Shown one piece after another: positions 40,382 through 64,000 of a DNA stretch of 64,000 nt. Made by a program: the position numbers and the translations under genes. The stretch is taken from positions 1,302,001 to 1,366,000 of the forward strand of contig NC_019973.1 in the NCBI RefSeq assembly GCF_000230995.2, read 5' to 3'. This DNA is from Mesorhizobium australicum WSM2073. GTDB taxonomy: Bacteria; Pseudomonadota; Alphaproteobacteria; Rhizobiales; Rhizobiaceae. Each line of letters opens with the position of its first letter. The first letter of the stretch is position 1. Under the pieces are notes generated by a model that was not told where the DNA came from, did no database searches, and saw only the letters and a program-made list of their open reading frames with translations.

Positions 40382-40536
40382 GACGGTCTGTGCTTCCCGG
40401 CAGGAGAACATTTTCCCCGGGGCCTTAACGATCCTTAGGGAGCTGTCCCTGGGAAGACCCGTGGGTTTTCTCACACGGCGCCCACCTACTTTGTAGGTTC
40501 CCGGGATCGCTCTCTCCACCGGTTGTGTGGATCGTC
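40382..40536 (+). ncRNA. ssrS: 6S RNA
   Basis: 6S RNA mimics an open promoter and sequesters sigma-70 RNA polymerase in stationary phase. This 155-base stretch lies directly upstream of ygfA, the conserved location of ssrS. GACGGTC at 40382-40388 pairs with GATCGTC at 40530-40536 (one G-U), closing a long imperfect rod: the 5' side (CTTCCCGGCAGGAGAAC, CCCCGGGGCC) and the 3' side (GGTTCCCGGGATCGCTCTCT) can pair around a central bubble. The ends are estimates. The remaining 98 bases to the ygfA start show no other feature. Confidence 0.8.
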
Positions 40537-40633
40537 ACTTGTCGCAAGGCGTCCACGCATCTTGGTGGATGATGCGGTGGAAAACGTCGCACTTGAGACC
40601 CCGCACAGCTCTGACCTTTTCTACCTTGGCCGC

Positions 40634-62919: not shown

Positions 62920-63312
62920 ATGCAAGGGGTAGCACGGAATTTCTTCACGCTGGCGATCATCTACGCGTTGTGCGGCATGGCGCTCGGCATCCACATGGCG
63001 ATCAGCGAAGACCACGGCCAGATGCCGACCCACGCCCACACGATGGTGGCCGGTTGGTTGATGTCGGCGGTTTTCGCGTTCTTTTACCACCTGTTTCCGG
63101 CTGCCGGGCAAAAGACGCTGGCCCTTGTCCATTTCTGGCTGACGGCAATCAGCGGCATCGGGCTGATGATCGGCCTTTATATACTGCTTGCCGGAAATCC
63201 GGGGATCGAGCCGTTGCTGGGGATATCTTCGATCGGCTTCTACGCAGGCATGCTGCTGTTTGCCTTCATCGCCTTGCCGGTGGTGTGGAAAAAAAGCCTG
63301 AGTGAAGGCTGA
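62920..63312 (+). CDS. Small heme-copper oxidase subunit I-like membrane protein
   Basis: A 130-residue protein with four hydrophobic segments (about 8-28, 42-62, 68-90 and 98-122). Histidines are placed as in helices of heme-copper/NO reductase subunit I: GIHMAISEDHGQMPTHAHTM, VAGWLMSAVFAFFYHLFPAA, LALVHFWLTAISGIGLMIGL. It is about a quarter of the size of a full subunit and lacks the copper-binding helices, so catalysis like a terminal oxidase is not expected; heme binding is possible. Monocistronic by position. Confidence 0.75.
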   Translation: MQGVARNFFTLAIIYALCGMALGIHMAISEDHGQMPTHAHTMVAGWLMSAVFAFFYHLFPAAGQKTLALVHFWLTAISGIGLMIGLYILLAGNPGIEPLLGISSIGFYAGMLLFAFIALPVVWKKSLSEG

Positions 63313-63420
63313 AACCCAGCCGGTGCGGCTGTGTTGTTACGGCACAGGAGCACGGTGTTGGGTAAAAAAACATCAGAGCCGTTAAGGGTTCATTAAGCTT
63401 TACAGGCGTTTACTATGTCC
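63313..63420 (+). other. Intergenic stretch before the candidate small RNA
   Basis: A weak hairpin (CAGCC 63317-63321 region with GGCTG) follows the stop codon and may end the upstream transcript. The rest is AT-richer DNA containing a CtrA-type box at 63382-63396. No open frame is supported. Confidence 0.4.
63382..63396. promoter_or_regulatory. CtrA-type box upstream of the candidate small RNA
   Basis: TTAA-GGGTTCA-TTAA matches the full CtrA consensus TTAA-N7-TTAA. It lies 24 bases before the first hairpin of the predicted small RNA, and TACTAT at 63411-63416 is a possible -10. CtrA control is inferred. Confidence 0.6.
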
Positions 63421-63518
63421 ATCCAGTGATCTGGATTCTTACCGAGTGGTTGGAGCCACTTTGTTTGACGCCTCCCTGTTAAACTCCTGAGAGCCGCCTT
63501 ATCCGCGGCTCTTTTTTT
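63421..63518 (+). ncRNA. Candidate trans-acting small RNA with three hairpins
   Basis: Three perfect stem-loops follow one another: ATCCAG-TGAT-CTGGAT (63421-63436), AGTGG-TTGGAG-CCACT (63445-63460) and AGAGCCGC (63490-63497) with GCGGCTCT (63505-63512), the last followed by seven T residues as an intrinsic terminator. An unpaired stretch between stems 2 and 3 contains GCCTCCCTG, which could pair with Shine-Dalgarno sequences, and loop 2 exposes TTGGAG. The architecture is that of rhizobial Hfq-type small RNAs. No open reading frame ends at this terminator. The 5' end is an estimate. Family unknown to me. Confidence 0.7.
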
Positions 63519-63556
63519 GTCCGCACCCAGGCGGCATTCCGCACGGCCGAACGCCG

Positions 63557-63571
63557 TTAACCTTCTGTTAA
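63557..63571. promoter_or_regulatory. CtrA-type box upstream of rcdA
   Basis: TTAA-CCTTCTG-TTAA matches CtrA consensus TTAA-N7-TTAA and lies 115 bases before the rcdA start. In Caulobacter rcdA belongs to the CtrA regulon, so the site fits known biology. Binding is inferred. Confidence 0.65.
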
Positions 63572-63685
63572 ACATGTGCTTGCCTTCACCCCGGACGAAG
63601 CGCATTTTCAAGCTTCAGTTTTATAGGGTCACGGGTGTATCGGCAGAGAGCCGAATCGGCCGGTCGCAAGTGCAGGGGCGTATCA

Positions 63686-64000
63686 ATGAACGAGCCTTCG
63701 AAGGGCATTGCGAAAACCGTCAAGCTGGCGGAACGCCGGGTGTTTTCGCACTCCTTCAAACCGCTTTACCAGGAAGGCATGGGCCTAGTCGAACAGGCGG
63801 CGGAATATCTCGACGGCAAAGGCCGGGCAGAGGCCAAGAAACTGTCGCGGCTGGCGGCCACGCTCTACGCGGCCGAATCGATGCGGCTGACCACCAGGCT
63901 GATGCAGGTTGCCTCGTGGCTGCTTTTGCAGCGTGCGGCGAATTCCGGCGAGATGACGCGCGATCAGGTCGCTTCGGAAAAATCCAAGGTGCGTCTCGAC
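63686..64000 (+). CDS. rcdA: RcdA/DUF1465 protease adaptor, N-terminal part
   Basis: The first 105 codons of a DUF1465 protein, cut by the window end. The helical sequence (VFSHSFKPLYQEGMGLVEQA, AEYLDGKGRAEAKKLSRLAA, TLYAAESMRLTTRLMQVASW) matches RcdA, the adaptor that in Caulobacter helps ClpXP degrade the cell-cycle regulator CtrA. The ATG at 63686 follows GGGG 11 bases upstream. A CtrA-type box lies upstream, suggesting feedback. The rest of the gene is outside the window. Confidence 0.88.
   Translation, partial: MNEPSKGIAKTVKLAERRVFSHSFKPLYQEGMGLVEQAAEYLDGKGRAEAKKLSRLAATLYAAESMRLTTRLMQVASWLLLQRAANSGEMTRDQVASEKSKVRLD

Follow-up and report, generated by a model that had tools for sequence, protein, structure and literature searches.

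The 373-base gap upstream of rcdA in Mesorhizobium australicum WSM2073 carries a gene for a small RNA of the known BjrC1505 family (RF02356), and a CtrA-type box precedes it. As a conserved element predicted before nearly every family copy examined, this box is newly described here. The local copy of this Rhizobiales RNA is probably activated by CtrA through the box, and the transcript of about 100 nt would act in trans as an anti-Shine-Dalgarno repressor. A conserved CtrA box would place the small RNA in the core cell-cycle circuit of the order.

A small RNA gene of the BjrC1505 family upstream of rcdA

The window, that is, the whole stretch of DNA analysed, comprises 64,000 bases. Within it, the gap (63313-63685) extends from the stop codon of a 130-aa open reading frame (63312) to the ATG of rcdA (63686). 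Both the gene-free gap and the exact TTAA-N7-TTAA box reported in the first-pass annotation were confirmed in the sequence. The exact motif was found just twice in the window, on either strand, and both occurrences lie inside the gap; the chance expectation was 0.04, and two were reached in none of 100 shuffles. The features of the locus are as follows.

63382-63396, + strand: CtrA-type box TTAA-N7-TTAA of the small RNA gene, exact in the sequence and kept in the family
63411-63416, + strand: candidate -10 element TACTAT, placed from spacing alone
63419-63518, + strand: small RNA of the BjrC1505/SmelC671 family, 5' end estimated (Rfam match 63375-63518, match of model R1 63413-63517)
63421-63436, + strand: hairpin 1, predicted stem of 6 bp, changes on both sides in 6/6 pairs across the family
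63444-63461, + strand: hairpin 2, predicted stem of 7 bp including two G-U pairs, changes on both sides in 5/7 pairs
63462-63480, + strand: near-invariant core TGTTTGACGCCTCCCTGTT including the anti-Shine-Dalgarno-like CCUCCCUG, from the alignment and the core search (CUCCCUGU in the available text of PMC3927594)
63489-63518, + strand: intrinsic terminator with a predicted 9-bp stem (hairpin 63489-63513) and a T7 tail, changes on both sides in 6/8 pairs
63557-63571, + strand: second exact copy of the TTAA-N7-TTAA motif, downstream of the terminator and ahead of rcdA, from the motif scan
63686-64000, + strand: rcdA (DUF1465), continuing outside the window to a full length of 177 aa

A sigma-70 consensus scan of 63200-63800 gave no promoters. 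The gene downstream of the small RNA matched DUF1465 (PF07323, 180 bits), which we take to be RcdA, the adaptor for CtrA proteolysis; among the 14 control genomes, the profile matched Caulobacter only. The placement beside rcdA noted in the first annotation therefore stands, and this neighbourhood is conserved across the family loci. Just upstream of the small RNA, the 130-aa frame (62920-63312) encodes a membrane protein with a weak resemblance to COX1 (E 0.00057, under the Pfam cut-off). A 6S RNA (RF00013, 77 bits) was located at 40382-40537.

The RNA had been taken for undescribed, but the comparison with known small RNA families identified RF02356 at 63375-63518 (72.9 bits against a cut-off of 50, E 9.2e-12) over the full length of the model (positions 1-140), which excludes a novel RNA. 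BjrC1505 reportedly first came from a B. japonicum paper. The genome of the window contains one copy. Matches were obtained in 166 of the 199 genomes of the order (139 above the cut-off), in 96 of 121 genomes of the taxonomic family (67 above the cut-off), and in 25 genomes of a class-wide draw of 240, two of those 25 coming from the same order. Unlike the Rhizobiales carriers, Caulobacter vibrioides and the rest of the 14 control genomes gave no match. The carriers among the core matches listed included Mesorhizobium, Bradyrhizobium, Phyllobacterium, Devosia, Bosea, Stappia, Roseibium and Sneathiella chinensis, the last of which presumably lies outside the order. The RNA is an old, mostly single-copy small RNA of Rhizobiales.

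The CtrA-type box aligns with positions 8-22 of the RF02356 model, which suggests that the 5' part of the model is promoter and not RNA. The 5' boundary of RF02356 is thus probably wrong, since both the conserved box and what is likely to be the promoter fall within 63375-63418. Model R1, made from 33 promoter-free transcript sequences, picked out the interval upstream of DUF1465 in S. meliloti Ak57 (L170 2701-2807, E 3.6e-7), where one DUF1465 place was found in the record searched, as well as the corresponding gaps in Shinella (L171) and Methylobacterium bullatum (L172). The Rfam model gave 31.7 bits in Shinella, 50.5 bits in Methylobacterium and nothing at E 0.05 in S. meliloti Ak57.

The S. 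meliloti counterpart is very probably a published RNA. For SmelC671, Reinkensmeier et al. (PMC3927594) report a model that is widely distributed in Rhizobiales, shows extensive microsynteny and counts among the most conserved, with CUCCCUGU in a long single-stranded domain followed by a terminator. According to the parts of PMC2873474 available, SmelC671 equals Sm84, a plus-strand RNA whose length in S. meliloti is 100 nt and for which confirmation by deep sequencing is listed; ReC71 of R. etli is grouped with SmelC671/Sm84, and these are the nearest known RNAs (PMC3927594, PMC2873474, available text). As the motif, the length, the strand relative to 6S RNA and the neighbourhood agree, BjrC1505 and SmelC671/Sm84 were assigned to a single family. 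Strain 1021, by its published coordinates, and Ak57 nevertheless differ by approximately 1.3 kb in the distance to 6S RNA. The available text of PMC3927594 mentions neither rcdA nor DUF1465, that of PMC2873474 does not mention rcdA, and neither links SmelC671 to CtrA. In the open-access literature, no function or regulator of BjrC1505/SmelC671 and no publication linking CtrA to this RNA was found.

The predicted fold of 63419-63518 had an energy of -36.7 kcal/mol compared with -21.3 (sd 3.1) for shuffled sequences (z -4.9; none of 200 as good). The three hairpins had been called perfect: they are unbroken and the T7 tail is present, but hairpin 2 contains its two G-U pairs and the terminator stem one. 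Over 126 aligned loci (122 distinct), 93% of the cells in the 27 predicted pairs pair in standard fashion. Changes on both sides were found in 19 of these 27 pairs, covering the three stems and a weak fourth helix, compared with a mean of 8 and a maximum of 13 in 200 shuffles. The covariation expected of the stems across Rhizobiales was thereby observed, with both sides changed in 17 of the 21 stem pairs by our own count from the alignment table. The remaining six pairs form the weak fourth helix (63463-63484) around the core, which shows little variation across the family and would expose CCUCCC in its loop. The motif CUCCCUGU lies ahead of the terminator as in the SmelC671 model; the published model puts it in a single-stranded domain, and here the weak helix predicted around it, which barely varies in the family, may or may not form. 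In four loci, all of family f43 (L086, L104, L114, L130), other upstream sequence was seen by eye in place of hairpin 1, with hairpin 2, core and terminator retained.

The CtrA-type box and its linkage to rcdA

To determine the conservation of the box, 130 loci were chosen with the Rfam model from the 166 matching genomes (133.6 down to 53.1 bits), including the locus of the window and two second copies and leaving out G037, G075 and weaker places. Three loci without a recognisable core (127 left) and one without 110 nt upstream were removed, and the 65 nt upstream of the remaining 126 were scored. At least seven of the eight box letters were present in 120 of the 126 loci and all eight in 51, compared with 12.5% and 0.9% in dinucleotide shuffles of the same regions; regions 200-600 nt further upstream gave 1% and 0/625, respectively. 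Because the Rfam model spans the box, its selection favours boxes, and the count was therefore repeated on loci chosen by the core alone (at least 118 stretches, 114 with enough DNA, which may share species with the Rfam-chosen set). Among the matches listed, the box reached seven letters or more in 112/114 loci and eight in 54/114, compared with 5.9% and 0.4% in simple shuffles and with 3 and 0 of 327 upstream regions. The simple shuffles, used here and in the second-box count below, keep base composition only. As a control, the suhB/MmgR family was scored in the same manner (30 loci, of which three, being the BjrC1505 locus itself, were left out and two were too short), and the box was found in 1/25 loci in a region of equal length and in 4/25 in a 140-nt region.

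The half-site columns were 79-100% conserved, the spacer columns 33-60% and the first C of the spacer 80%, values that partly reflect selection as they come from loci with at least seven letters. Among the 119 loci in which a hairpin was found, 103 had hairpin 1 at 37-44 nt from the box start. Exact boxes were present upstream of the RNA in S. meliloti and Shinella as well. These data support the proposal of an independent small RNA gene that ends at a terminator of its own and is preceded by a CtrA-type box conserved at near-fixed spacing. The family loci are related, and the box and neighbourhood counts are not independent observations.

The rcdA frame was identified in 119 of the 130 loci, and it lay downstream on the same strand in 118; at L089, the open frame starts upstream of the RNA. 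With enough DNA available, rcdA was downstream in 94 of 97 core-chosen loci among the matches listed, and a median of 154.5 nt separated the end of the RNA from the match to the RcdA profile. Outside the order, rcdA was near the RNA in L132, L133, L138, L139 and L140 and absent from the stretches examined for L134, L135 and L137.

Eleven of the 130 loci have no adjacent rcdA, and nine of them could be scored for the box. Eight of the nine keep seven or eight letters, which argues that the box belongs to the RNA. The box is kept with rcdA elsewhere in the genome in L033, L046 and L119, and with no DUF1465 found in the genome in L103, L108, L111 and L118. The exception is L121, a prophage copy with four of eight letters. 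At L128 (G024:C439), a second RNA copy with 7/8 letters has no rcdA nearby, and the other copy in G024 adjoins rcdA. A profile search of the genomes of the eleven loci located DUF1465 elsewhere in G007, G009 and G016 and beside another RNA copy in G024 and G097, and did not find it in G131, G150, G121, G017, G198 and G120. Since G150, G121 and G198 belong to one genus, the independent events are few. The box and the RNA are thus one unit able to persist without rcdA.

The RNA was also found in phages. Core searches of IMG/VR yielded at least 175 viral stretches, which were scanned with R1, and at least nine viral contigs carry the RNA (L442, L444, L445, L447, L448, L449, L527, L541 and L589; E 4.9e-16 to 1.6e-3 on those listed). 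Eleven viral contigs were found in the forward search and four with a reversed 16-mer control; L443 and L446 are exact-core viral contigs that R1 did not detect. The prophage copy (L121:2523-2620) is a second copy in G097 (E 4.4e-12), situated 1.2 kb behind an endolysin gene. In all ten phage and prophage copies listed, the best upstream box had only 4-6 of eight letters and rcdA was absent from the stretches examined. A terminase lies near the RNA in L442, L444 and L589, a tail fibre gene one gene away in L447, a major head protein near it in L541, a primosomal protein in L445 and a DNA methyltransferase in L449; the neighbour proteins tested in L448 and L527 gave no match. The box-less phage copies suggest that the RNA may be useful to viruses too.

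The close linkage raises an alternative, namely that the RNA is mainly the 5' leader of rcdA, a single CtrA-driven transcript that is mostly terminated and otherwise reads into the gene. The same-strand position of rcdA directly downstream (118/130 loci; 94/97 among the core matches listed) at a median of 154.5 nt would suit such a transcript, as would the several start sites of agrobacterial rcdA (PMC10469942, available text) and the CtrA motif and binding at Caulobacter rcdA (PMC4287350, available text). However, a strong terminator follows the RNA, the RNA and the box persist where rcdA has moved or was not found, and at least ten phage or prophage copies occur without rcdA in the stretches examined. 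In addition, a second box of 7-8 letters precedes rcdA in 26 of the 118 family gaps (4% in simple shuffles), which is far from general, and rcdA was unaffected by CtrA depletion in S. meliloti (PMC4433202, available text). A role as rcdA leader is accordingly unlikely, and as the sole role it is disfavoured by the retention of the box and RNA without rcdA and by the phage copies.

The conserved core and its possible targets

The 19-nt core TGTTTGACGCCTCCCTGTT occurred once per genome in 91 of the 199 genomes of the order, and its reversed control in none. The GCCTCCCTG stretch that had been singled out at first lies inside this core and proved to be a family feature, whereas the TTGGAG loop proposed along with it is not, since the majority consensus of 33 members at that place is GAGTGGCTCCTGTCCACTC. 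Given the complementarity of the core to strong ribosome-binding sites, an anti-Shine-Dalgarno riboregulator would be the likeliest mode of action, with 63462-63480 probably forming the target-binding region.

Base-pairing of the core with the start region of rcdA, as a target in trans, was little better than with shuffled sequences: over 110 loci, the mean energy was -15.7 kcal/mol, whereas shuffling the start regions gave -14.9 and scrambling the core gave -14.6, and 53% and 57% of the loci, respectively, surpassed these means. The gcrA leaders likewise showed no pairing beyond shuffles (29 of 30 loci, -16.5 vs -17.0). A search of 31 genomes for the complement of an 18-nt core with up to three mismatches gave 102 sites, about 19 of which are the RNA gene itself by our own coordinate count, compared with 63 for the reversed control, a small excess. 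The genome of the window contains 39 CAGGGAGG-N4-11-ATG sites, and 63 ACAGGGAGG sites were found in 19 genomes; no recurrent protein of note was detected among these. The proteins scanned were 24 from 29 usable loci and 20 from 25, and for the genome of the window 24 of 25 proteins were scanned, from 30 loci with one duplicate dropped. Substrate-binding proteins at first seemed enriched, but they and transporter genes were rejected as targets because a control Shine-Dalgarno sequence, AACGGGAGG, gave such families about as often.

Rather than an mRNA seed, the core might be a module for protein binding or transcription, or else a very short coding sequence, which would be compatible with CtrA control and to which we assign a small probability. 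Most seeds are shorter and less constant than this near-invariant stretch, the phage RNA copies lie near late genes, and the target searches found no target, all of which would fit such a module. On the other hand, the motif equals an anti-Shine-Dalgarno sequence, and the segment after CTGTT differs in length among members, as judged by eye, which means that the sequence behind the core preserves no reading frame.

The RNA was compared with other small RNAs of the group. EcpR1 (SmelC291), a repressor of dnaA and gcrA that is likewise a small RNA conserved in Rhizobiales, lies downstream of divK-pleD with a sigma-70 promoter under ppGpp control (PMC4414408, available text), whereas the BjrC1505-type RNA is situated before rcdA and behind the 130-aa membrane protein. 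GspR (SmelC775), a 143-nt RNA with three hairpins that represses ctrA, is found in Sinorhizobium/Ensifer between SMc03844 and SMc03845 (PMC5928217, available text). Identity with EcpR1 or GspR was set aside by locus position alone. The suhB/MmgR family (RF00519) has a CCUCCCU stretch before its terminator, as in the BjrC1505-type RNA, but as a rule it has no CtrA box, and its model gave 21.6 bits at the present locus, below the 41-bit cut-off. In six of 31 genomes (G025:C6, G020:C16, G022:C14, G014:C231, G002:C334 and G009:C373), the same model gave weak matches to the BjrC1505 locus (E 1.8e-5 to 8.8e-4), from which it appears that the two families share a 3' module of CCUCCCU plus terminator.

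CtrA control of the small RNA

The full CtrA motif has been given as TTAA-N7-TTAA (PMC4287350) and the S. meliloti consensus as TAA-N7-TTAAC (PMC3616915) in the available text of these papers. The exact full motif at 63382-63396 lies upstream of the estimated start, and its position, with a start approximately 100 nt upstream of the end of the terminator, fits activation by CtrA. In the mechanism that we favour, CtrA would turn the gene on by binding the box, whose end lies about 23-25 nt upstream of the estimated start; RNA polymerase would then make an RNA of about 100 nt, ending at its own terminator before rcdA. Acting in trans, the near-invariant GACGCCUCCCUGUU core would pair with purine-rich ribosome-binding sites of target mRNAs and lower their translation. 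The assignment to CtrA in M. australicum WSM2073 comes from the motif only, which would leave room for another protein at the box or for repression by CtrA, but this is hardly probable given the agreement with both published motifs and a location just upstream of the estimated start, where activating CtrA boxes lie.

Activation of the small RNA by CtrA offers a possible reading of a published puzzle. In S. meliloti, CtrA was bound in the rcdA promoter region by ChIP-seq, and rcdA showed no significant response to CtrA depletion by array, qPCR or lacZ fusion, from which it was concluded that direct CtrA regulation of rcdA is not conserved (Pini et al., PMC4433202, available text); we take the rcdA of that study to be this DUF1465 gene. 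A CtrA-driven small RNA could explain binding at rcdA without a response of rcdA. As cpdR1 and pleC were likewise bound without response (PMC4433202, available text), rcdA is no special case. The available text of PMC4433202 makes no mention of sRNA or non-coding RNA, and that of PMC3616915 assigns to rcdA itself a CtrA motif located ahead of this coding gene in S. meliloti.

In S. meliloti, the first box lies approximately 300 bp and the second approximately 140 bp before DUF1465; a second box nearer rcdA is present in Shinella as well. In the window, the box at 63557-63571 is probably the own site of rcdA, and the second box, in S. meliloti as in the window, could give the same ChIP peak. 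An order-wide ancient circuit can be proposed only tentatively, in which CtrA would drive the BjrC1505 riboregulator and rcdA at one locus, each through its own box, and the published binding at rcdA would be at least partly that of the small RNA; phages would have taken the RNA, lost the box and come to express it with late genes. If this were so, phages could deploy a cell-cycle RNA whenever it suits them. CtrA-linked small RNAs are likewise known from Caulobacter, in which six ncRNAs with a CtrA motif (PMC4287350, available text) and CcnA have been described in the accessible literature.
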